In this document: piece by piece, positions 9,025 through 32,329 of the stretch | How the letters are laid out: each line of letters opens with the position of its first letter | Numbering within the stretch: the stretch's first letter is position 1 | Notes under the pieces: model-generated | The model's input: the letters and a program-made list of their open reading frames with translations, nothing else | What the model was told of the DNA's origin: nothing | Database searches by the model: none | Translations under genes and position numbers: made by a program | From: Bacteroidota bacterium | Lineage (GTDB): Bacteria > Bacteroidota > Ignavibacteria > UBA10030 > UBA8401 | Length of the DNA: 32,329 nucleotides | Direction of reading: 5' to 3' | Assembly: GCA_013361065.1 (NCBI GenBank) | Contig: JABWAK010000002.1 | Location: 66,273-98,601, forward strand

Positions 9025-9993
9025 CTACTCTTCGTAGATCCCTGCCCGTTCTTTAATGGACATCGGCACCGGCACCTCCTTTGCGAAGAACGTCCTTCCA
9101 GCTCCCCGCGTCAGCGCCCACCGCTCTAACCAAGAGATACCGGCGGCACCGAAGAACGATTCGTACTGACGGTACACAGGATCGTTCATCGCCTCGTCCA
9201 GCGTGATGAATGCATACCCCATCTTCCGGAATTCAGCGCAGAGTGCAGCATAGTGGTCCCCGTTCAGACGGTTGGCATGCAGCAGCAGGATCTGCGGTAT
9301 TTGACGGCCGAACAGTGTATCAGACATCCACTCATAGTAGCGCGCTTTCGCCGTCATGTACGGCAGATACTCAGCCGCAACGGCGCGCATGCCGGCGGAG
9401 TCGTTCGCTGCGAAGGCCTTGTCATACGCTGAGGCGAAGAGCCAGTCCGCATTATCCAGGGTGACCGGAGCGATGCGGTAGCCAAGCGAATCAAGGAATG
9501 CTGTGAGCGTTGCGCGCGTCAGACTGTCCCGCCCCGTCTGCAGATACGGATGCCGGAACCATTCCGGCCTCCCTCCCCGTTCAGCATACAGCTGATGGAT
9601 GGTTCTCATCCCTTTTACAATATCCTCCTTCGCTTCCGGTACCGGCACACGGTTCTGGCTCTTGTGTGCATACGTGTGGTTCCCGAGCGCGATGCCGGCA
9701 TCAAGCCAGCGCTTCATTGTCGCCACCCGCTGCGAGTCCCTCTGGCCCTTCACCTCCAGCTTGTTCTCATTCACGAATGCTGTTACCGGCGTCCGCGCAT
9801 CCTTGATCTGTTCCAGCAGTAGTGTTGTCACCCGGTCCAGCTCCGCATTGTCCACTCTCGCTGCAATGCTGAGCGGGAGATCGTCCATGGTAACGGCGAG
9901 ACGTCTCGGAAGCTCCTGTGACAGCGCAGATCCGGTGATGATACTGGAAATGAAAATACAGAGACTGAAACGTAATACGGCAAAATGCTTCAT
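9025..9993 (-). CDS. Secreted polysaccharide deacetylase (NodB/CE4 family)
   Basis: The protein has 322 residues. A signal peptide ends near SALSQ (residue ~26). NodB motifs follow in order: motif 1 TMDD (D37, D38), motif 2 GNHTYAHK with metal-binding H106 and H110, motif 3 WFRHPY (R147-Y150), and a late ILLLHANRLN with H239. This family removes N- or O-acetyl groups from chitin-like oligomers, peptidoglycan or other surface glycans using a divalent metal. The catalytic set looks complete. The C-terminal ~60 residues beyond the core (ITLDEAMNDPVYR onward) are of a kind seen in secreted members. Its start codon is only nine bases from that of the divergent membrane protein gene. Confidence 0.9.
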   Translation of the reverse strand: MKHFAVLRFSLCIFISSIITGSALSQELPRRLAVTMDDLPLSIAARVDNAELDRVTTLLLEQIKDARTPVTAFVNENKLEVKGQRDSQRVATMKRWLDAGIALGNHTYAHKSQNRVPVPEAKEDIVKGMRTIHQLYAERGGRPEWFRHPYLQTGRDSLTRATLTAFLDSLGYRIAPVTLDNADWLFASAYDKAFAANDSAGMRAVAAEYLPYMTAKARYYEWMSDTLFGRQIPQILLLHANRLNGDHYAALCAEFRKMGYAFITLDEAMNDPVYRQYESFFGAAGISWLERWALTRGAGRTFFAKEVPVPMSIKERAGIYEE

Positions 9994-10002
9994 CGGAATG
10001 TG

Positions 10003-11076
10003 ATGGTTTTATTGATACTTAATGTCTTGTTCAATATAATGAATATCATTGTCACCAACCCGGATGGAATCATCGTGACCTCACTTTTTTCCACAACACC
10101 CCGTCAATCCACTGTATTGTTGTTGCTGTTCGTGTCGATATCATTCCTTCTTGTGATCATCGACCGGTCACCGGTGCATCTTGAGAAAAGAGCTCCCGCG
10201 GTGGCGATCACCGAACAGAGTCTTGCTTTCTATGAAGGTACGCTTTCCGGATCACTGGGAGGACCCTATGCATACCGCGTTCTGGTGCCGTACGGGATCT
10301 CGGTTTTTCACGCTCTGTTGCCGTTCGCTCCGGTGCTTGTCATCGACGGAATCATCAAATTCTTCCTGCTCATACTCTGTCAATGGGGTTTGTACAGATA
10401 CCTCTGTCTTTTCTTTCCTCGTTCCGCGGCGCTGTTCGGAGTATTGTATGCCGATATTCTGATCTCGTTCACACTCTCCTCGATCGCCGGTCCATCAATC
10501 ACAGAAACGGCGGATATTCTCAATATGGTGTTCTTCATCGCAGCATTCTATGCTCTTCATCAAAGATCATTGCCCTTGCTGTTGATCACCCTCTTCGTTG
10601 CCACATGGAATCGTGAAACAATCCTGGCGATCCTTCCCATGATCATTATCGATGACATTCGCAGAAAAGAAAGGCCGATCCGCTCCATTGCCGCGATGGT
10701 GGTTGTGTTGTCCGCCTACGTTGTCATTCGCTTGATCATACCGGCATCACAAGGGGCCTGGTTCACATTCACAGGGCTTGTCAAGAATATTCCGTTCCTC
10801 TCACCTGAACACACTATGAACGCTCTCATGGGGAACATCCATGTAGCGCTGTTACTGCTGCCATTGATCGTGCTGTCGCTGGTGGGATTCCGTCGGAAGC
10901 CGGTGTTCCTGCAGAACGCTATGGCCATTGTTCCATTATTTATCGTGGCGCACTATCTGGTCGGCGTTATCATTGAAACCCGGTTATGGATGCCGTTATT
11001 CATCATTCTCATACCGTTGTCGCTCATCACCATTCTGGAATCCTTGGAACGGCCCTCGAGCAATACACCTTCCTAA
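10003..11076 (+). CDS. Polytopic membrane protein, possibly GT-C-like
   Basis: The protein has 357 residues and about nine to ten hydrophobic helices. A conserved-looking extracytoplasmic loop GGPYAYRVLVPYG follows the second helix, and a WNRET motif sits in a mid-protein loop. I do not recognise a named family. The large number of helices with short loops, an early exposed loop and the neighbouring glycan deacetylase suggest a GT-C-type glycosyltransferase or a sugar-lipid transporter, but no catalytic DxD or acidic loop is clear. I chose ATG 10003 because GGA lies five bases before it; the upstream ATG 9985 would overlap the divergent deacetylase gene. The codons look more AT-rich than the neighbours, which may hint at transfer. 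A strong terminator follows at 11139. Confidence 0.7.
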   Translation: MVLLILNVLFNIMNIIVTNPDGIIVTSLFSTTPRQSTVLLLLFVSISFLLVIIDRSPVHLEKRAPAVAITEQSLAFYEGTLSGSLGGPYAYRVLVPYGISVFHALLPFAPVLVIDGIIKFFLLILCQWGLYRYLCLFFPRSAALFGVLYADILISFTLSSIAGPSITETADILNMVFFIAAFYALHQRSLPLLLITLFVATWNRETILAILPMIIIDDIRRKERPIRSIAAMVVVLSAYVVIRLIIPASQGAWFTFTGLVKNIPFLSPEHTMNALMGNIHVALLLLPLIVLSLVGFRRKPVFLQNAMAIVPLFIVAHYLVGVIIETRLWMPLFIILIPLSLITILESLERPSSNTPS

Positions 11077-11138
11077 AAACAGGGTCCGGAGTGACTATCG
11101 ATCCTCTGATGTCAACCGGAACGGTCACCCGCTGACCC

Positions 11139-11169
11139 TTGTCAAGGTTAACCTTGACAACGTTTTTTT
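11139..11169 (+). terminator. Rho-independent terminator (22-bp perfect palindrome plus T7)
   Basis: The perfect palindrome TTGTCAAGGTT/AACCTTGACAA (11139-11160) is followed by CG and seven T residues. Folded with a TTAA loop it gives a 9-bp stem and a U-tract. It terminates the membrane protein gene on the plus strand just before the convergent lipoprotein gene. Confidence 0.85.
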
Positions 11170-11172
11170 ACA

Positions 11173-11760
11173 TTAGTAAAGCTTCGAAAGCCTCATGTAC
11201 CAATTCCACTCCCAGGTCGCCCCATCATCCGTTGAGATCGCCTGTGACCAAACAGGATGCTCGGGATCGCGCGCATCCCACTGATAGAGGATCACGATCG
11301 GCCTTCCCTCGAACATGTCGTCCGCGTACAACTTTCCCACACCATTCTCGAACGAACCGGTGACCGGCGTGCCGTCCATGCCGCCGCCGTTACTGTCCAC
11401 CCAATACACGGACCAGAGCCGCGTCTGCCGGTCATACAAGCGGATCGCCATCCCTTCGAACGGCTTCCCGTTCCAGGTGGAATAATAATGCTCCACATTG
11501 CTCCGGCCAAGCAGCGCTTTACTCATATGGAGTTCGGAATCGAACTCGATCCACTCATTGCTGTTGGTAAGGCGGGACTTCAGCATCCGGTTCTGGACCT
11601 TCCACTTCCCTACCAGGAAATCGAAATCATGTTCGGACGATGTGGCCGAAGCAACGATCGTCCGTTTCTTTGCCGGGGCGGCAGTGGTCTCCTCTGAACG
11701 CTGGATCATGGAGGAGCAGGAGGCGAACGACAGTGCCAGGAACAGGATCGCGGTTCTCAT
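11173..11760 (-). CDS. Lipoprotein, DUF1579-like
   Basis: The protein has 195 residues. The lipoprotein signal is short, with LSFASC giving C15 as the anchor residue. After a linker, EHDFDFLVGKWKVQNRML opens a beta-rich domain with repeated W-containing strands (SVYWVDSNGGGMDGTPVTGSF, ILYQWDARDPEHPVW, TWEWNWYMRL). This resembles DUF1579 and related small beta-barrel proteins that begin with HDFDFLxGxW. No enzyme role is known. AAAGGAAA lies upstream of the ATG. It is on the same strand as the DinB gene but 153 bases away, so it may have its own promoter. Confidence 0.82.
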   Translation of the reverse strand: MRTAILFLALSFASCSSMIQRSEETTAAPAKKRTIVASATSSEHDFDFLVGKWKVQNRMLKSRLTNSNEWIEFDSELHMSKALLGRSNVEHYYSTWNGKPFEGMAIRLYDRQTRLWSVYWVDSNGGGMDGTPVTGSFENGVGKLYADDMFEGRPIVILYQWDARDPEHPVWSQAISTDDGATWEWNWYMRLSKLY

Positions 11761-11913
11761 GATGATTTCCTTTCGGTGATAGTGATGTGTGAGTGCATAG
11801 TTCTCCTGTGCGACCGGTCCGACGCCACGCGCCTGGACTCCTGTAGAAACAGAAGCAAGTATGGTCGGCGGACCGGTCGTTGAGTATCGTGTGAGCGGAT
11901 GCTTAGCAGCGGA

Positions 11914-12438
11914 TCACGATCCAAGCAGCGGCAGGTACTTCTCGCGGATGGTCCGCAGATGCCAGCGCGGATGACCGGCAAGGATGAAGGCGATGGAGAG
12001 AACGCTGTATGGACCGCGGAATCCGGCACCGGTCCGCTGCAGCGATTCGTCGTTGAATGAACGGAAGAGTGCGATGGTCGAGCGGCGGAGCACGATCAGT
12101 TCCTCCGTCAGATCCTCGATGGTGCGCTCGTCCGCGAAGGAATGCGCGGCATAGGCGTCTTCGTCGAACGGCAGCACGGTGCCGGACTCGCACCGGGCAA
12201 AGGCCAGTGCACGGTATGTGAAGACCCGTTCGGTATCGATGAGATGCTGCAGGATCTGAGCGATGGTCCACTTCCCCAGGGCATAGACCTTCCGGCCAAG
12301 GGCCCGGAAGGTCTCCGCCGGCAGCTGTTCCAGCTCGCGCAGTCCGGCGGTGAGAGCGGACAGGTGGTCGGTATCATCCGCCATCAGGATGTACCGGTCG
12401 AAATACTCCGGCATCGGTGCGATCTGTGATCGTAACAT
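11914..12438 (-). CDS. DinB-family four-helix protein, putative metal-dependent
   Basis: The protein has 174 residues. It begins with a long helix containing LRELEQLPAE; 'WTIAQILQHLIDTERVF' supplies H65, and the C-terminal AGHPRWHLRTIREKYLP supplies H156 and H160. The three histidines match the metal site of the DinB/YfiT four-helix bundle superfamily, some of which are thiol transferases (bacillithiol or mycothiol S-transferases). Others have no known reaction. The ATG at 12438 is well supported by AAGGAAGGA just upstream. The gene follows the GlxA-type regulator by 26 bases and is probably in one transcript with it. Confidence 0.87.
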   Translation of the reverse strand: MLRSQIAPMPEYFDRYILMADDTDHLSALTAGLRELEQLPAETFRALGRKVYALGKWTIAQILQHLIDTERVFTYRALAFARCESGTVLPFDEDAYAAHSFADERTIEDLTEELIVLRRSTIALFRSFNDESLQRTGAGFRGPYSVLSIAFILAGHPRWHLRTIREKYLPLLGS

Positions 12439-12464
12439 CGGTCCTTCCTTTCGTTCTGTATGTT

Positions 12465-13415
12465 TCAGACAGCGGTCCCGGACAGCAGGCGGTTCACCTG
12501 CCGTTCGCTTTTCAATCCCACCTGCTGCGCGATCTGGCGGCGGGTAAGGTCGGGATTCTTCAGGAGCTGACGGATCCTCTCCCGGCGGAGGATGGTGATG
12601 TAGTCGTTCACGCTCACCCCGGTCTCTTTCCGGAAGATGCGCGTCAGGTTCCGTGCACTCATGCAGGCGGTCTCGGCAAGGTCAAACAGGGTCGTGCGTT
12701 CGTCCAGATGCGCCGTCAGCCTGTCCTGCACGGCATGGATGCCGGAGTGGATATGATTCCGGTACAGCATCACCTCGCTTTGCTGATGCTGCTCCCCGTT
12801 GCGGCGCGTGTAGATGACCATCTCGCGCGCCACGGTGTGTGCCAGATGCGGACCGGCCAACCGCTCCACGATGGCGAGCGCCATATCGATGCCGGACGCG
12901 ATACCGGCACTGGTATAGATCCCTTCCTGGAACGTGTAGAGGATGTTCTCCTGCACCAGCGCTTCGGGGTAACGCTTCTGCAGTTCCTGCGTCCGCTTCC
13001 AGTGCGTGGTGCACCGCCGGCCGTTGAGCAGCCCTGCCTCTCCAAGAACGAACGCGCCGCTGCAAATGCTTCCGACGGTCACTCCGTCCGCATGGGAACG
13101 GCGCAGCCATGCACGCACCTCTTTGTCCCGGCGGAACTCTGAAGAGAGCAGATAGGACAACTCCGCTCCCGGGACAAGGATGATATCTCCGGCCGATGGC
13201 GTCATCCGTGAGTAATGCTTCAGCGGTCCGAACGGCAGATGCGCCGAGGTATGGAGACGCGGCGTCGTGGAGCAGTACCGGACGGAGATCTCGGCTCCGT
13301 AGCCGGCCGCTTCCAGAAAGACCTGGTCCGGTCCCGCCAGATCCATGATATGTGTGTACGGCAGGACCAGGAAGAACACGGTGACGGGACGGTGTGTTGT
13401 TGTTCTCATCTTCAT
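12465..13415 (-). CDS. GlxA-family transcriptional regulator (DJ-1/PfpI-like domain + AraC HTH)
   Basis: The protein has 316 residues. The N-terminal DJ-1/PfpI-like domain includes VTVFFLVLPYTHIMDLAGP and GSICSGAFVLGEAGLL with C118 at the elbow, followed by CTTHW. The C-terminal ~90 residues are an AraC-type helix-turn-helix (TTLFDLAETACMSARNLTRIFR, then DLTRRQIAQQVGLKSERQVNRLL). This is the second GlxA-type regulator in the window; it aligns in layout, but not closely in sequence, with the one at 5973. The ATG at 13415 has AGGAG four bases upstream, and a second ATG six bases on is also possible. It probably controls itself and the DinB gene, and perhaps the divergent YwqK-like gene 142 bases away. 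Confidence 0.88.
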   Translation of the reverse strand: MKMRTTTHRPVTVFFLVLPYTHIMDLAGPDQVFLEAAGYGAEISVRYCSTTPRLHTSAHLPFGPLKHYSRMTPSAGDIILVPGAELSYLLSSEFRRDKEVRAWLRRSHADGVTVGSICSGAFVLGEAGLLNGRRCTTHWKRTQELQKRYPEALVQENILYTFQEGIYTSAGIASGIDMALAIVERLAGPHLAHTVAREMVIYTRRNGEQHQQSEVMLYRNHIHSGIHAVQDRLTAHLDERTTLFDLAETACMSARNLTRIFRKETGVSVNDYITILRRERIRQLLKNPDLTRRQIAQQVGLKSERQVNRLLSGTAV

Positions 13416-14537: not shown

Positions 14538-15044
14538 ATGTCTGCCATGTCCATCACCTACCGCCATATCGAACCGCAGGACAACGCCGAGATCGCCGAG
14601 GTCATCCGGAAGATCTTCCGCGAGCACCGCATCGACATGCCGGGCACGGTCTATACCGATCCGACCACCGACCGACTGTATGAGCTCTTCCGCACACCGA
14701 AGAGTGTGTACTGGATCGCTCTGGACGACGGCGTGATCATCGGCGGATGCGGCATCTATCCCACCAACGGACTTCCCGACGGTTGTGTTGAACTTGTGAA
14801 GTTCTACGTTGCCGCGGAGTACCGGGGCAAAGGGGTCGGCAACACCCTCATGCAAAAGAGCATCGCTGCGGCGGAGGAACTCGGTTACACACAGATGTAT
14901 CTGGAATCGTTCCCTGAGCTCAACAAGGCGGTCAGCATGTACCTGCGCAACGGTTTCTCCTACCTTCCCGCCGCGCTCGGCAACTCCGGTCACTTCGCCT
15001 GCAACATCTGGATGGTGAAACAACTCTCCCCTTCCGTCCGATGA
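14538..15044 (+). CDS. GNAT-family N-acetyltransferase
   Basis: The protein has 168 residues. The acetyl-CoA pyrophosphate-binding motif A is clear: FYVAAEYRGKGVGNTLM (R96-G101 loop). It is preceded by a strand with 'VYWIALDDGVIIGGCGIYP' and followed by 'AEELGYTQMYLESFPELNKAVSMYLRNGF', a standard motif B. The acceptor amine is unknown. Either ATG 14538 or ATG 14547 could be the start, and neither has a good ribosome site. The stop overlaps the start of the next gene as ATGA, so it is coupled to the LuxR-type HTH protein. Confidence 0.88.
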   Translation: MSAMSITYRHIEPQDNAEIAEVIRKIFREHRIDMPGTVYTDPTTDRLYELFRTPKSVYWIALDDGVIIGGCGIYPTNGLPDGCVELVKFYVAAEYRGKGVGNTLMQKSIAAAEELGYTQMYLESFPELNKAVSMYLRNGFSYLPAALGNSGHFACNIWMVKQLSPSVR

Positions 15045-15466
15045 AACGGACCGTGCTGATATACGGCGGCTCTATGGCCGCTCTTATCGTGCTGCTGAAG
15101 ATCGTGGAGTACCGGTATTTCGTCTTCGGTGACCTGACCGCCGAATTCTTCGTCGGTTTCATCGCCCTCCTCTTCACCGGTCTCGGCGTCTGGGTCGGAT
15201 GGAAACTGACCCGCCGCACCGTCATCGTCCGGGACCCGGATTTTGTCCCGGATGCCTCCGCACTGGCATCGCTCGGCATCAGCAAGCGAGAGCTGGAGGT
15301 GCTGGAACTGATCGCGCAGGGACTCTCCAACCGCGAGATCGCGGAGAGACTCTTCCTCTCCCCCCACACGGTGAAATCGCATTCCTCCAGCCTGTTCATC
15401 AAACTCGGTGCGCGGCGCAGGACGGAGGCGATCAAGCGGGCAAAGGAGCTGGGAGTGCTGGAATAG
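15041..15466 (+). CDS. Membrane-anchored LuxR-type HTH protein
   Basis: The protein has 141 residues. Two transmembrane helices (residues ~5-25 and ~35-57) precede a short linker and a LuxR/GerE helix-turn-helix (residues ~80-140). The HTH reads SKRELEVLELIAQGLSNREIAERLFLSPHTVKSHSS, with the signature ending KLGARRRTEAI. There is no receiver or sensor domain, so DNA binding would happen at the membrane, possibly governed by dimerisation in the bilayer or by a membrane partner. The start overlaps the acetyltransferase stop as ATGA. The adjacent DUF4199 membrane protein is a candidate partner; similar pairings occur in Bacteroidota from general knowledge. Confidence 0.87.
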   Translation: MKRTVLIYGGSMAALIVLLKIVEYRYFVFGDLTAEFFVGFIALLFTGLGVWVGWKLTRRTVIVRDPDFVPDASALASLGISKRELEVLELIAQGLSNREIAERLFLSPHTVKSHSSSLFIKLGARRRTEAIKRAKELGVLE

Positions 15467-26846: not shown

Positions 26847-28034
26847 ATGACGCGCCTGGAACGGATCATCAGAAAGAAAGAACGGACGGTCATCGGCATC
26901 ATGTCCGGAACATCGGTCGACTCGGTCGACGCAGTGCTCGTGAAAGTGCGCGGCTCCGGACTGGACACGCGTTTCCGGCTGCTTGCATTCCATCGTCATG
27001 CCTACCCCGCCGGGTACCGCGATTTCGTCCTGAAGAATTCGCTGCCCGGCGCCGGGAGCGTCGACACCATTTCCACCATCAACGTCCTCTCCGCGCAATT
27101 CTTTGCGGACGCTGTGAAGGCGCTGCTCCGGAAGAGCGGTACGCCGGCATCGTCCGTGGACCTGATCGGCTCGCATGGACAAACGGTGCATCACCTGCCG
27201 CAGCCGGCGGCGATGTTCGGAAAGAAGGTCCGCTCCACACTGCAGCTGGCCGATCCTTCCGTCATTGCAAAACTGACCGGCATCATCACGGTGGGGAATT
27301 TCCGCGCCGGTGATATGGCGCTCGGCGGACAGGGAGCGCCGCTCGTACCATACTTCGATCTGCTGGCGTTCCGTTCCAAAAAACATCATCGAGCACTGCT
27401 GAATATCGGCGGCATTGCGAACATCACCCTGTTGAAGAAGAATGCCGCAGAAAAGGACCTTCTCGCACTGGATACCGGTCCGGGCAACATGGTGATCGAT
27501 GCACTCATGCAGCACTTCTACCGCCGCCCGTACGACAGGAACGGCAGCGTTGCTGCCTCCGGACGGATCATCCCTGCGCTGTTGACGGAGCTGGTGAAGC
27601 ATCCGTACTTCACCCGCCCGCTCCCCAAATCGACCGGGCGCGAGGAGTTCGGCAGTATGTTCGTCCGCCGCGTGCTGCACCGTGCGCGCGGTGCAAGAAA
27701 ACAGGATGTGATCGCAACGGTGACCGAACTGACGGCGCTCACGGTGTGGGACCAATTCAATCGATATCTTCGTCCTGCGTTGAAGAAGGCTCCGCTGCAG
27801 GAACTCATCGTCAGCGGCGGCGGTTCGTACAACCATGCGCTGATGGACTCACTGCGCCGCTGTTTTGCACCGGCGCTCATCATGCACAGCGACGAACTCG
27901 GCGTCCCGTCCGACGCGAAAGAGGCGCTCTGCTTTGCGCTCCTGGCGAACGACACGGTGAGCGGTGTTCCGTCCAACCTTCCGTCCGTCACCGGCGCGAA
28001 GAGCCGGACGGTCCTGGGAGTGATCGCGCAATAA
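26847..28034 (+). CDS. anmK: Anhydro-N-acetylmuramic acid kinase
   Basis: The protein has 395 residues. Family motifs are clear: GIMSGTSVDSVDAVLV (17-32, phosphate loop), LIGSHGQTVHHLP, VGNFRAGDMALGGQGAPLVPYFD, ALLNIGGIANITLL, LALDTGPGNMVIDALM and ELIVSGGGSYNHALM. AnmK phosphorylates and opens 1,6-anhydro-MurNAc to MurNAc-6-phosphate, so the cell recovers wall sugars during peptidoglycan recycling. The next gene in the pathway, murQ, is not adjacent. The ATG at 26847 has AAGGA ~13 bases upstream, a little far. Length and order are normal for the family. Confidence 0.95.
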   Translation: MTRLERIIRKKERTVIGIMSGTSVDSVDAVLVKVRGSGLDTRFRLLAFHRHAYPAGYRDFVLKNSLPGAGSVDTISTINVLSAQFFADAVKALLRKSGTPASSVDLIGSHGQTVHHLPQPAAMFGKKVRSTLQLADPSVIAKLTGIITVGNFRAGDMALGGQGAPLVPYFDLLAFRSKKHHRALLNIGGIANITLLKKNAAEKDLLALDTGPGNMVIDALMQHFYRRPYDRNGSVAASGRIIPALLTELVKHPYFTRPLPKSTGREEFGSMFVRRVLHRARGARKQDVIATVTELTALTVWDQFNRYLRPALKKAPLQELIVSGGGSYNHALMDSLRRCFAPALIMHSDELGVPSDAKEALCFALLANDTVSGVPSNLPSVTGAKSRTVLGVIAQ

Positions 28035-28177
28035 TCAGGCCGACTTGTTCCACGGTCCGACAGGGATACCATCCTGACCGACACATACGGAGACAAGATC
28101 ACGTCCAACGCTCACCGGGGCGTTCACCATTTTTCAAAGGACGTTTTGCTAATTCTTTCATTGACTTCGGAGATATC

Positions 28178-28639
28178 ATGATTCGAAAGTATCAGCCTGC
28201 TGACTGTGATGAGATTGTGAATGTGTGGTCCCGTGCGTCCGCTGTTGCGCACCCATTCCTCAGTCAGGATTTCCTCACTGTTGAGCGATACAATATCCCC
28301 AATGTATATCTGCCCAATGCAGAAACGTGGGTTTGGTTGTCCGACGGGAAGGTCATCGGGTTCATCTCGCTTCTTGGGAATGAAGTCGGCGCCATCTTCA
28401 TCGACCCGACAGCCCATCGTTCCGGGATCGGACGGGCACTCATCCATCACGCACAGAACCTGCATGGAGACCTCGAGGTTGAAGTGTTCGAGAAGAACAT
28501 GTCGGGACGGGCGTTCTACGCTGCGATGGGTTTTATTCCTTTGCTTCAAAAGGTTCATGATCAGACAGGCTTCAATGTTCTGCGGCTTCGACGAGTTGCT
28601 GAGGATCCACAGCGTCTGAACAGTACCAAGCACCACTGA
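28178..28639 (+). CDS. GNAT-family N-acetyltransferase
   Basis: The protein has 153 residues. It starts MIRKYQPADCDEIVNVW, continues with WVWLSDGKVIGFISLLGNEVGAIFIDPTAHRSGIGRALI (motif A loop R81-R86) and ends with VFEKNMSGRAFYAAMGF (motif B). The layout resembles small acetyltransferases such as YjaB. The acceptor is unknown. GGAG lies five bases before ATG 28178, which fixes the start; the longer frame overlapping anmK is rejected. The 143-base gap after anmK contains no gene. Confidence 0.9.
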   Translation: MIRKYQPADCDEIVNVWSRASAVAHPFLSQDFLTVERYNIPNVYLPNAETWVWLSDGKVIGFISLLGNEVGAIFIDPTAHRSGIGRALIHHAQNLHGDLEVEVFEKNMSGRAFYAAMGFIPLLQKVHDQTGFNVLRLRRVAEDPQRLNSTKHH

Positions 28640-28654
28640 GTTTGGATGGCCGGG

Positions 28655-28708
28655 ACGGTGAGCGTCACCAATAGTTTGACCGGGTTATGCTCCCGGGTGA
28701 CGCTCACC
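28655..28708. repeat. Inverted-repeat element, copy 1 (upstream of histidine kinase)
   Basis: Arms GGTGAGCGTCACC (28657-28669) and GGTGACGCTCACC (28696-28708) are perfect reverse complements, and each arm is itself a GGTGA/TCACC palindrome around GCG or CGC. The 26-base centre includes a CCGGG/CCCGG stem with loop TTATGCT. It lies 50 bases before the kinase ATG. Confidence 0.75.
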
Positions 28709-28757
28709 TGCTCAATCGAAGTATCGCACTTTCAACAACATCAACACGGGGGAACAG

Positions 28758-30305
28758 ATGCTCAAGAATCTATCGCTGCCGGTGAAGACGTCGCTGATCT
28801 TCTTCCCGCTCTTCTTCGGAGCGGTCGCGGTCATTTCGTACTTCAACTACAGCGCCACCCAGGAACAGATGATGCTCCAGGTGCAGAACGCTTCCACCGC
28901 CCAGGCCAACACCATCAAAGAAGCACTGGTGAACATGATGGTGACCAACGAGAGTGTGGATGACAGCTACCTGAAGAAGGTCAGTTCCTCCGGCGACATC
29001 CGGGATATCCACATCCTCTTCCGGCTGGACAGTCTGCACTTCGATGAGGAGTTCCTGGAGGATGATGAGCGGCGCACACGTCTGATCCGCCGCGAGGTGG
29101 AGGTGTGGGACATGAACAAGAGTTTCGGTCCGGAAGTGTTCCACACGAAGGAACCGCAATGGTTCCTGGCGTGCAAGAAGAAACTGCATGAAACAAAGGT
29201 CATTTCGGACCTGGCGAAGGATAAGCCGGCGATCCTGCAGGAGTGCGAGGAGATGCAGGCGCTCATCCCGTTCGTGGCGGAGAAGAAATGTCAGCAATGC
29301 CATAATGTGGAACTGGGAAGCGTCCTCGGCGCGGCCGTGATGACCGTCCCGCTCGCCGAGACCGCCTCACATCTGGAGGCAAATGCGCTCCGTTCCCTCT
29401 ATGTCTTCCTCGGTTTCCTGGTCCTTTCCCTGGTGCTGAATGTGGTGGTCTTCCGCCGCTTCGTGGAAAATCCGCTGCAGCGGCTGATCGGCATCACCGA
29501 TGCCATCGGCAGCGGGAAGATACCGGAGAAGAAAGCGAAGGACGGATTCGACAATGATGAGATCGGCAAGCTTGCTTCCGCGTTCGACCAGATGCAGGAG
29601 AATCTGCAGCGGGTGCAGAAGGAGTTGCTGAAGAACGAGCGTCTCTCCGCCGTGGGACAGATGGCCAGTTCCATCGTCCACGATTTTCGGACGCCGATGA
29701 CCTCCATCTCCCTGATCGCCGATTTCATGAAACGGCACGAGACCATGGACCCGGAGCAGCGCGCGAAGAAGTTCGAACAATTGCACGGCGCCATCCGCCG
29801 CATGGACGATATGATGCAGGAACTGCTCGACTTCTCCAAAGGGAGCTTCCAGCTGAACCTGGTGCAGTGCACCGGCGAGGAGCTGGCGGAAGCGCTGCTG
29901 CTGGATTATGAACCGCACTTCAAGGAATCATCCATCCGCTTTGCCGTGAGCAACCGGTCGGCCGGTCCGCTCACGCTGGACAAGGAGCGCATCCGCCGCG
30001 CGGTGAACAACCTGATCAACAACGCGGAAGATGCAATGCCGGACGGCGGCATGATCAGCGTCCTGCTGGAGAACACCGGGAACGATCTGCGCATCACGGT
30101 GGAGGATACCGGCACCGGTATCCCGGCCGAGATCAGGGAACACCTCTTCGAACCGTTCGTCACGCACGGGAAGAAGAACGGCACCGGACTCGGACTGACC
30201 GTGGTGAAGAAAGCCGTGGACCATCACCGCGGCACCGTGACCGTCGTGTCTGAGCCGGGGAAGGGAACAACCTTTACCATCACGATCCCGCGCACCACAG
30301 TATAA
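28758..30305 (+). CDS. Sensor histidine kinase with periplasmic CxxCH heme-binding domain
   Basis: The protein has 515 residues. TM helix 1 (~10-30) and TM helix 2 (~211-233) bracket a ~180-residue periplasmic domain that contains EKKCQQCHN (C178, C181, H182), a c-type heme attachment site of the DUF3365/Tll0287 kind. A HAMP segment (~234-290) follows. The dimerisation helix carries the phospho-acceptor H308 in SSIVHDFRTPMTSI, and the ATPase domain has NNLINNAEDAM, DTGTGIP and GTGLGL boxes. It probably senses redox state, oxygen or NO through the heme. The H-box reads H-D-F-R-T-P instead of the usual H-E-(L/F)-R-(T/N)-P. No response regulator lies beside it in the window. GGGGGAA precedes the ATG. 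Confidence 0.92.
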   Translation: MLKNLSLPVKTSLIFFPLFFGAVAVISYFNYSATQEQMMLQVQNASTAQANTIKEALVNMMVTNESVDDSYLKKVSSSGDIRDIHILFRLDSLHFDEEFLEDDERRTRLIRREVEVWDMNKSFGPEVFHTKEPQWFLACKKKLHETKVISDLAKDKPAILQECEEMQALIPFVAEKKCQQCHNVELGSVLGAAVMTVPLAETASHLEANALRSLYVFLGFLVLSLVLNVVVFRRFVENPLQRLIGITDAIGSGKIPEKKAKDGFDNDEIGKLASAFDQMQENLQRVQKELLKNERLSAVGQMASSIVHDFRTPMTSISLIADFMKRHETMDPEQRAKKFEQLHGAIRRMDDMMQELLDFSKGSFQLNLVQCTGEELAEALLLDYEPHFKESSIRFAVSNRSAGPLTLDKERIRRAVNNLINNAEDAMPDGGMISVLLENTGNDLRITVEDTGTGIPAEIREHLFEPFVTHGKKNGTGLGLTVVKKAVDHHRGTVTVVSEPGKGTTFTITIPRTTV

Positions 30306-30322
30306 ACTAAAATCATCAGCAG

Positions 30323-30373
30323 ACGGTGAGCGTCACCACTTGCGGTTGCATAACCAGGGGTGACGCTCACCGT
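30323..30373. repeat. Inverted-repeat element, copy 2 (downstream of histidine kinase)
   Basis: Arms ACGGTGAGCGTCACC (30323-30337) and GGTGACGCTCACCGT (30359-30373) form a perfect 15-bp stem, the same arm sequence as at 28655. The centre differs but includes GGTT/AACC around GCAT. It begins 18 bases after the kinase stop. Confidence 0.75.
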
Positions 30374-30378
30374 TAAAC

Positions 30379-30410
30379 ACACAAGAAGGGGCTTTCGCCC
30401 CTTCTTGTGT
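30379..30410. terminator. Bidirectional terminator between convergent genes
   Basis: A 14-bp stem, ACACAAGAAGGGGC/GCCCCTTCTTGTGT, with a TTTC loop is followed by TTTCT on the plus strand. It separates the plus-strand kinase from the minus-strand secreted protein. Confidence 0.75.
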
Positions 30411-30434
30411 TTCTACCTTAACCGATCATATCCG

Positions 30435-32329
30435 CTACTTCAACAACAGCATCTTCCTCACTTCGCTGAAACTCCCAGACTCCAGACGGTAGAAATAAAC
30501 ACCGGATGGAACCGAGCGCTGCTGCGTATTGGTGCCATCCCACTCCACAACATGTTCGCCTGCCGAGTGCGGGCGGTCCGCCAGCACTTTAACCAGTTGT
30601 CCCAGAACGTTGTACACACGCACCGACGCATGAGCGGCATTCTGTGTGGAATACCGGATCGTGGTCACCGGATTGAATGGATTGGGATAATTCTGATACA
30701 GCCGATATTCCGCGGGAATGGTCGTTGACGGAACCGACGTCACGAAATCTCCCGGCCCGATGATGAATTCGTCCTGCGAGGTCAACGGACGCGTCAGCAG
30801 GATGTCGCAATCGCCTTCGATGGCAAGTGGATCCCCTTCGCCGGCTTTTACTCGGTTGACCAAATAAATCGGGTGTTTCTGTTTCCCGTTGATCACTGGA
30901 ATAAGATTCAATCCCCCTTTGGTGGAATCATAGCGAGTACCGGTCGGATCATACGTTGATGCCATAATATACGATTCTATTTGAGGTAGGGTGTCAGAGA
31001 AATCCCATCGGTTCATTTTCCCGTTATCCATGAACACGACATCCAGTTGACGGGGAGAATTGGATTCAATAGCATATACCGCAAATGGAATGCTTATGAA
31101 CCCACGGAACGACCACACTGGCGGGACGAGGGTTTCACGGCGATAGAAATATGCACGTTGTGAGCGCTGGGTATTCGTTGAGTCGAACGTATACAGTTCT
31201 CCCGGGTCGAACCGGCCATTTCCATTCCTGTCGTCCAATGACGTTCGTTGAGAGAAACGTATCTTAATATCTCTGTAGTCGGTCAACGGTAGATTGCTTT
31301 GGATATACGTGTTTATCGGTACATAGCCCATGTAATCGCGTTTGAAGCCTGGGAAACGCGTTGAATCGACCGAGGTATACACTAACGATCTCACAGAAAC
31401 ACTTGGGTGATACTCCCCGCTCCAATGCAGCTTCAGTCCGTTCACCACCGGAATTCCAAACCCTGCGATCGTTTCGGTGTTCAAAATAGTAGTATTCAGG
31501 ATCTGTGAGCCGGTCGTTGAATCCTTCATCCTGAAACCGGGTGTGCCGCCGATGCCGACCGAATCGACCCCCTGCACGATGTAATAATGTTCGAGATATG
31601 CTTTATTGTCGATCACCGTAATGGTCGGAACGATGGATGATTTCCCTGCGCGCCGTTTCATTCCGACTCTATCGTTTACCGGCGTGTGCACAGTCAACGC
31701 GAGTTCACGCTTCCATGCATTGGCGGTTGAATCAGTGATAAAAAGAGAGATCGGTACGGTGGTGCCGGGATACGATCCGGGAATCACAACGGTGCAATAC
31801 GATGAAGGATCGGCGGCGTTATACACAGGATCGAATCGACCGTTGGGTTGCAGCAATGGAATGGTCAGTTGGCCAGCCATGGTAGTACCATTGACTAACA
31901 CTGTTACCTTCAATGAAGCAAGGGTGAACGGGTTTGGATTGACAAAAGGAATGCTGAAGCGCACCGTCTCGCCTTTATTGGCCTTCCCGTCATTATTGGC
32001 ATTGTCAGACAGTACGATCGGACTTTCCACTGTAATCGGTGCGGTGGTAATGAAGGACCTCAGCTTATTCCATTCATAGATTGCGTTAGACTCATCGGTA
32101 ATGACAGAATTCAGGTACATTGCTTCGCTCTGCGGGGCAACGGTCACCGAGCCGCCGAAGATCCTGTCCCCGGCAATGCCATCCTTGTGACTCCCGTCGT
32201 CAAAGAGAGGAGTTTCTGCGATCAGCACTCCTGATTCGGAGTATAACCGACCATTTGCTGTTATCCCCTTGATCTTTCTTGCATCCACGACAATATCAAA
32301 GGCGTAGTTCGAACCGACCGTCGTCTGAT
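30435..32329 (-). CDS. Secreted type IX-sorted repeat protein (5' end outside window)
   Basis: About 630 residues are visible, and the frame stays open to the right edge; the GTG at 32288 is internal, not a start. The N-terminal visible part ('FDDGSHKDGIAGDRIFGGSVTV', 'SDNANNDGKANKGETVRFSIPFVN') looks like a choice-of-anchor/CARDB-type Ig domain with a Ca-binding-like DNANNDGKANKGE run. The middle ~300 residues are beta-rich with no family I recognise and include RNGNGRFDPGELYTFDS, a possible dockerin-like or EF-hand-like DxNGxxD loop. The end has YPNPFNPVTTI, YNVLGQLVKVLADRPHSAGEHVVEWDG, GVYFYRLESG and RKMLLLK, the type IX sorting signal. A surface or secreted role is clear, the ligand is not. 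Confidence 0.85.
   Translation of the reverse strand, partial: QTTVGSNYAFDIVVDARKIKGITANGRLYSESGVLIAETPLFDDGSHKDGIAGDRIFGGSVTVAPQSEAMYLNSVITDESNAIYEWNKLRSFITTAPITVESPIVLSDNANNDGKANKGETVRFSIPFVNPNPFTLASLKVTVLVNGTTMAGQLTIPLLQPNGRFDPVYNAADPSSYCTVVIPGSYPGTTVPISLFITDSTANAWKRELALTVHTPVNDRVGMKRRAGKSSIVPTITVIDNKAYLEHYYIVQGVDSVGIGGTPGFRMKDSTTGSQILNTTILNTETIAGFGIPVVNGLKLHWSGEYHPSVSVRSLVYTSVDSTRFPGFKRDYMGYVPINTYIQSNLPLTDYRDIKIRFSQRTSLDDRNGNGRFDPGELYTFDSTNTQRSQRAYFYRRETLVPPVWSFRGFISIPFAVYAIESNSPRQLDVVFMDNGKMNRWDFSDTLPQIESYIMASTYDPTGTRYDSTKGGLNLIPVINGKQKHPIYLVNRVKAGEGDPLAIEGDCDILLTRPLTSQDEFIIGPGDFVTSVPSTTIPAEYRLYQNYPNPFNPVTTIRYSTQNAAHASVRVYNVLGQLVKVLADRPHSAGEHVVEWDGTNTQQRSVPSGVYFYRLESGSFSEVRKMLLLK

Follow-up and report, generated by a model that had tools for sequence, protein, structure and literature searches.

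A candidate c-heme Cache histidine kinase without a neighboring response regulator, and its phospho-acceptor-less relatives, in a genome of the Ignavibacteria

What does a membrane histidine kinase with a single heme attachment motif outside the membrane and no response regulator beside it sense, and what might set its output? The gene that raises this question occupies positions 28758..30305 (+ strand) of the window, by which we mean the whole 32,329-nucleotide stretch of Bacteroidota bacterium DNA that was analyzed (G000:C122:66273-98601, from a genome of 3.8 Mb in 288 contigs). The open reading frame starts with ATG and encodes 515 amino acids. From the reading frame, its motifs, and Pfam, we assign the order first membrane helix, putative c-heme Cache sensor, second membrane helix, HAMP, HisKA, and HATPase_c. 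The first membrane helix, at about residues 6-32 (28773..28853, +), is predicted from a hydropathy peak at about residues 5-32 and from helix 7-64 of an AlphaFold2 model; the second, at about residues 208-237 (29379..29468, +), is predicted from hydropathy. A HAMP domain follows at residues 238-284 (29469..29609, +; PF00672, 29.3 bits against a cut-off of 25).

The H-box histidine, the N-box, the G1 and G2 boxes, and both domains of a HisKA-type kinase are all present. HisKA spans residues 299-361 and lies above the Pfam cut-off; it holds the H-box HDFRTP (29679..29696, +), recognized by motif and by Pfam, with His308 as the phospho-acceptor. HATPase_c, also above its cut-off, spans residues 408-513 (29979..30296, +; PF02518, 105.5 bits) and contains Asn422, EDTGTGIP, and GTGLGL. 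Three pairs of window-type kinases gave dN values of 0.10 to 0.26 against dS values of 1.3 to 1.6, and these kinases are under purifying selection. The original prediction had drawn attention to the replacement of Glu by Asp in the H-box. The replacement is real but unremarkable: HD stands in place of HE in 8 of the 26 H-boxes read in this genome, the one in the window included (the best 30 of 46 HisKA matches were sampled, and 4 were unreadable). We dropped it as a notable feature on this count, and because Asp309 is kept even in relatives that lack the acceptor histidine, described below.

Exactly one C..CH sequence occurs in the protein, CQQCH at residues 178-182 (29289..29303, +), and it sits between the two hydropathy peaks. 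Cys178, Cys181, and His182 are invariant in 13/13 aligned near relatives and in 36/36 sequences once more distant ones are added (both counts include the window protein), so that the motif is more than a chance occurrence. By motif and conservation it is a predicted site of c-type heme attachment, with His182 as the putative proximal ligand. The 36-sequence alignment, drawn from the order and the class, includes L071-L073 and 20 of the 26 loci L074-L099; L076, L081, L083, L084, L089, and L094 were omitted, untried, as apparent near copies. Seven of its columns are invariant: Met61, Pro171, Cys178, Cys181, His182, Leu190, and Gly191. Three matches above the cut-off for the cytochrome c assembly family PF01578 are found in the same genome. 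A scan of genome contigs returned five loci (L001-L005) from records labeled Ignavibacteriae, Ignavibacteriales, or Bacteroidota, and among 41 whole genomes searched, G001, G005, G007, and G010 proved to have full-length orthologues, besides the genome of the window (G000).

No sensor domain reaches its Pfam cut-off in the 515-residue protein. A profile built from the 36 sequences matched the solved domains of GSU0935 (3b42) and GSU0582 (3b47) in the PDB at 1.5e-8 and 2.6e-5, the next match being at 0.19; with the single sequence as the query, neither entry was among the 60 matches listed of 68. The AlphaFold2 model of residues 1-285 (pLDDT 85, pTM 0.68) has a long signaling helix, a strand at 163-173, a helix at 176-180 that carries the CXXCH motif, and a strand at 189-198. 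A short CXXCH helix inserted between strands is what the preprint PMC12889525 describes for sCache_heme domains. The extracytoplasmic CXXCH, the homology to solved domains, and the Cache fold of the model together place the protein in the broad c-heme Cache group (sCache_heme, GSU0935/GSU0582 type); as a sensor it would be a variation on an established type.

Narrower filing fared less well. PF11845 (DUF3365/Tll0287-like) gave no match at E<=1, and we dropped assignment to that family for this reason. The earlier label of a DUF3365-type kinase falls with it, though the protein is a relative within the broad group. A paralogue, L034, scored 19.5 bits against the PF11845 cut-off of 24.1; PF21563 (Mcp40H-20_sensor) likewise stayed below its cut-off for the window protein, at 17.6 bits against 27. 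Hhalign of the relatives' alignment against PF11845 members covered 46 columns only, around the heme motif. A stand-alone redox cytochrome of the Tll0287 type is ruled out by the fusion to HAMP and kinase domains; the conserved candidate for the distal ligand, moreover, is Met61 and not Cys.

We put the probability at about 60% that the gene encodes a histidine kinase of the inner membrane, an orphan, with one covalent c-type heme in its periplasmic Cache domain. Against this reading stand the scores of the window protein, which by itself falls below the cut-offs of PF11845 and PF21563, and part of the structural comparisons. Foldseek ranked a WalK model first (2.6e-6); 3b42 took second and third place, at E ~4e-3 and with low TM-scores. 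In favor of the reading, VIA-align superimposed the model on Tll0287 (5b82) with Z 9.0 and an rmsd of 3.7 over 123 residues, and on WalK Cache domains with Z ~10; but many ordinary Cache domains score near Tll0287, and a Z of this size is moderate evidence only. The entries 3b42 and 3b47 were absent among the 50 VIA-align rows listed, which carries no weight either way. What had been claimed from the sequence at the outset, a c-heme sensor kinase with HDFRTP and covalent heme in the periplasm as the sensor, was confirmed in its reading frame, its single CXXCH between two helices, and its H-box at residue 308. The heme itself is probably right, given the conserved CXXCH, the profile match to GSU0935 and GSU0582, the Cache-like model, and the assembly genes.

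How would such a sensor work? Cys178 and Cys181 would hold the heme, to judge from the conservation of CXXCH, and His182 would be its proximal ligand. The proposed distal ligand is Met61 (28938..28940, +), invariant in 36/36 sequences. The profile alignment pairs Met61 with chain residue 26 of 3b42 and the CXXCH histidine with residue 110, and the heme ligands of GSU0935 are reported as Met60 and His144 (PMC8396549); the offset is 34 for both, so Met61 corresponds to Met60. Lying on the long signaling helix that continues the first membrane helix, Met61 may thus ligate the reduced heme. By the GSU0935 model, oxidation of the heme or binding of NO would free Met61, and the helix would therefore shift. 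With general HAMP kinase mechanics added, this shift would pass through the second membrane helix and HAMP to the DHp helices, where it would alter autophosphorylation of His308; phosphate would presumably go on to a response regulator encoded elsewhere. A published signaling c-heme Cache protein without the distal Cys was considered to bind water (PMC12889525), so the distal ligand may differ here.

Two stimuli could drive this switch, and we regard each as a serious possibility of somewhat less than even odds. In one, NO binding to the ferrous heme would make Met61 dissociate and the kinase switch, redox state setting only the competence of the heme. This agrees with the slow NO release and the lack of a stable oxy-complex described for a membrane c-heme Cache protein of the signaling type with HAMP (PMC12889525). 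It agrees also with the Geobacter GSU0582 and GSU0935 domains, which take up NO whether oxidized or reduced, Met60 being displaced when NO binds the reduced heme (PMC8396549); but these domains bind CO too, and according to the same report they were proposed as redox sensors. In the other, the stimulus is the redox potential of the heme, oxidation breaking the Fe-Met61 bond as proposed for GSU0935 and GSU0582. The placing of the invariant Met61 on Met60 fits this, as does the redox-linked ligand switch reported for the Geobacter domains (PMC8396549). The crystals of GSU0935, however, contain one His/Met heme and one His/water heme, Met60 being a ligand in one of the two (PMC8396549), and for Met61 the role of ligand is suggested by alignment, which does not show coordination. 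The sequence cannot tell redox from NO.

The original prediction did not touch a further feature, which probably lies beside the heme strand. The distinct rows of the clade of the window protein (10/10; branch support 96/91) share an inserted stretch of about 24 residues with Cys139, His144, and Cys163 (29172..29246, +), which no other row of that alignment has. Strand 134-139 of the model ends with Cys139 and strand 163-173 begins with Cys163, which makes a disulfide closing the hairpin likely; the loop is probably a disulfide-stapled extension. When the alignment is widened, Cys139 shares its column with the second Cys in the first heme motif of two-heme sensors, and the loop may therefore be related to that site. 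One locus, L004, has a tandem sensor-only copy of the heme domain (L004:5215-5922, G010:C189:9587-10294; 235 amino acids) directly upstream of the full kinase; this copy keeps CXXCH and lacks both loop cysteines. The main text of PMC12889525 contains neither the word "disulfide" nor the word "methionine". The cysteine pair could instead be a second thiol redox sensor, or a metal site together with His144, so that the protein would integrate two signals. The constancy of Cys, His, and Cys throughout the clade, and the loss of both cysteines together in the sensor-only copy, speak for such a role. We nevertheless find it improbable, since for paired cysteines flanking a periplasmic hairpin a structural disulfide would be the simplest reading.

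To whom the preferred kinase, with its heme sensor, would pass its phosphate is a question of the surrounding genes. A PF00072 search found no receiver domain within the window. Among the 100 PF00072 matches listed genome-wide, the sole one on the contig (C122:53613-53987) lies upstream, at a distance of about 12 kb from the left edge of the window and of 42 kb from HisKA. No receiver turned up either among the genes that neighbor the orthologues in L001, L002/L037, L003, L004/L032, L005/L199, and L038, as searched with a narrow profile and then a broader one, the latter of which found receivers in 22 of 30 loci around the HisKA domains of this genome; L004/L032 has two receivers about 6 kb away in another gene group. 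The lack of an adjacent regulator, as claimed at the outset, thus stands for the window and, within these searches, for the close orthologues. As a distinguishing mark it was dropped: in this genome, 15 of the 46 HisKA domains lack a receiver within 3 kb (the window's included; the figure is an upper bound on account of contig ends). Elsewhere in the window, 15041-15466 encodes a 141-residue protein whose N-terminus is hydrophobic and which has a LuxR-type HTH but no receiver match, possibly a membrane-anchored LuxR regulator by its sequence.

The contig ends at the last base of the window, about 2 kb past the gene, and the DNA to its right is unreadable in this genome. A cognate regulator might thus lie just beyond that end, and in G432 a window-type kinase (L198:6419-8092) is followed about 1 kb downstream by a 1116-residue hybrid kinase-receiver (9136-12486), a lead to a possible partner. 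We give this explanation very little credence. Besides the receiver-free surroundings of the orthologues, the kinase gene is followed by a strong hairpin (30379..30410; -26.2 kcal/mol, z -7.9) and then by a gene on the opposite strand. The hairpin, a possible shared terminator, is terminator-like on both strands (the scan gave 5 sites against 2.2 expected in shuffles). Scanned for promoters, the stretch 28000-30600 yielded none. Palindromic repeats with the same GGTGAGCGTCACC arms flank the gene upstream (28657..28708) and downstream (30325..30371); the 13-base arm GGTGAGCGTCACC has 28 occurrences in the genome and its reversed control has 0, with both arms at four places, and the palindromes appear REP-like.

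A functional tie to conserved neighbors was considered as well. The order anmK-kinase-DUF2279 is found in L001, L002, L003, L004, and L038, with the tandem sensor-only gene before the kinase in L004. DUF1207 comes next in L001, L002, L003, and L038; in L004 no DUF1207 gene was called. A GNAT gene is next in L002, L003, and L004, the records of L001 and L038 ending before that point. The neighbors in L005 are different. In the window anmK lies at 26847-28034, and the best DUF2279 match of the genome is on another contig. In G002, G003, and G004 (loci L114, L115, and L116) anmK and DUF2279 are adjacent without the kinase. This speaks against a functional tie to anmK or to DUF2279/DUF1207; the site is one of presence or absence, and the kinase looks like a removable passenger.

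The kinase has relatives, one of them in the same genome, that have lost the phospho-acceptor. Across 98 genomes of the order, searched with the copy in this genome as query, we read 13 distinct proteins of this kind, with Gln at the acceptor position in 7 (family f1) and Arg in 6 (family f6). The clade comprises the paralogue G000:C232:9452-10903 (L031:9449-10903), which has Gln, together with L014, L033, L034, and L138-L147. Position 422 of the N-box is Tyr in 13/13 of these dead proteins; the 15 distinct rows outside the clade have His at the acceptor position, and the same 15 have Asn at 422. CXXCH is kept in all 12 dead proteins that cover the heme motif. A branch with 100/100 support sets the 13 dead rows apart, in a tree from which 5 of 33 rows were left out (two duplicates, one same-gene repeat, and two short fragments); L013, L156, L160, L161, and L163 were skipped in the box-reading alignment, being already in the set. 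A smaller tree with more distant kinases sets the dead rows next to the window's clade and the other His-bearing rows outside (97/96). In the closest dead pair, G000-G006, the ratio dN/dS comes to about 0.13 for the kinase part and 0.10 for the sensor; the dead kinase domain thus seems to be constrained. For the pair G000-G018 the dN/dS figures of the kinase part are 0.31/1.19, and for two other pairs dS was not computable. A stop or a split breaks up the dead copies of G450 and G010, contig ends shorten those of G002, G445, and G441, and in G442 the window-type copy falls into two reading frames. In the f1 genomes the dead gene lies near at least one of argG, a DsbD/CcdA-type gene, and a 2-oxoacid:ferredoxin oxidoreductase; none of these was found next to the f6 copies.

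Does the live kinase work with its paralogue G000:C232:9452-10903, or compete against it, a dead partner with the same sensor modulating the live one? We hold this to be a tentative possibility. The single well-supported branch, the uniform loss of acceptor and N-box residue with the heme motif kept, and the constraint on the closest pair all argue for it, as does co-occurrence. Ten of the 98 genomes have a window-type kinase, 13 a readable dead copy, and 6 both (hypergeometric 2.6e-4, a figure that ignores shared ancestry and unequal completeness). A looser count of 15 genomes with a dead copy, 7 of them shared, adds fragments in G001 and G015 whose acceptor is unreadable. A precedent is ChrS, which was made a pseudokinase by laboratory evolution and is reported to raise heme tolerance through its paralogue HrrS, with which it forms heterodimers (PMC9491836). 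On the other side, the live and dead paralogues are only about 35% identical and their genes are not neighbors; and of the 13 genomes whose dead copy was read, 7 yielded no window-type kinase, so that the dead copy can exist alone.

Set beside known systems, the window protein shares with GSU0935 and GSU0582 (3b42, 3b47) a periplasmic Cache/PAS-like domain between two helices, one CXXCH before the second membrane helix, an aligned distal Met, and HAMP after the sensor. It differs from these chemoreceptors in its histidine kinase output and in its Cys-His-Cys loop of about 24 residues. The sCache_heme signaling fusions (DUF3365/Tll0287 in the broad sense), for which the preprint reports fusions to histidine kinases, likewise have a Cache fold with the CXXCH helix between strands (PMC12889525); in contrast to them, the window protein is not recognized by PF11845, has the extra loop, and has Met as its conserved distal candidate where Tll0287 has Cys. 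Two-heme sensor kinases of the same order and class (most of L074-L099) share the sequence of membrane helix, heme Cache domain, membrane helix, HAMP, and kinase, along with the Met61 column, but they carry CXXCH and CX4CH in one periplasmic domain and have H-boxes of the HEINNP or HELNNP type. The dead clade resembles histidine pseudokinases such as the ChrS variant (PMC9491836) and DivL; in it the acceptor is gone and the rest of the architecture is kept. It differs in carrying a c-heme sensor, and the gene in the window, for its part, is an intact kinase.

The protein is most likely, on the evidence of its sequence, a membrane sensor with a permanently attached heme outside the membrane and a kinase inside. 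Sensor kinases with c-type heme were already known; less expected is a look-alike with a dead kinase in related bacteria, this one included, and it is the Cys-His-Cys loop and this dead relative clade that point beyond what was first predicted. In 2026 a preprint defined c-heme Cache sensors as one family, with NO binding for the signaling type, and the control of kinases by such sensors is not settled in its text (PMC12889525). The clade described here would offer a clean test, with an invariant candidate distal Met, a clade-specific loop, and a live kinase together with a dead paralogue of the same sensor in one genome. It is conceivable, if still doubtful, that the c-heme kinase family of this order has split into a live Cys-His-Cys branch and a long-kept dead branch that act as a paired system, in which a heme pseudokinase sets the output of the live kinase through mixed dimers or competition for the receiver. 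If the dead paralogue does modulate the live one, the pair would be a natural, long-conserved counterpart of the laboratory-evolved ChrS pseudokinase.
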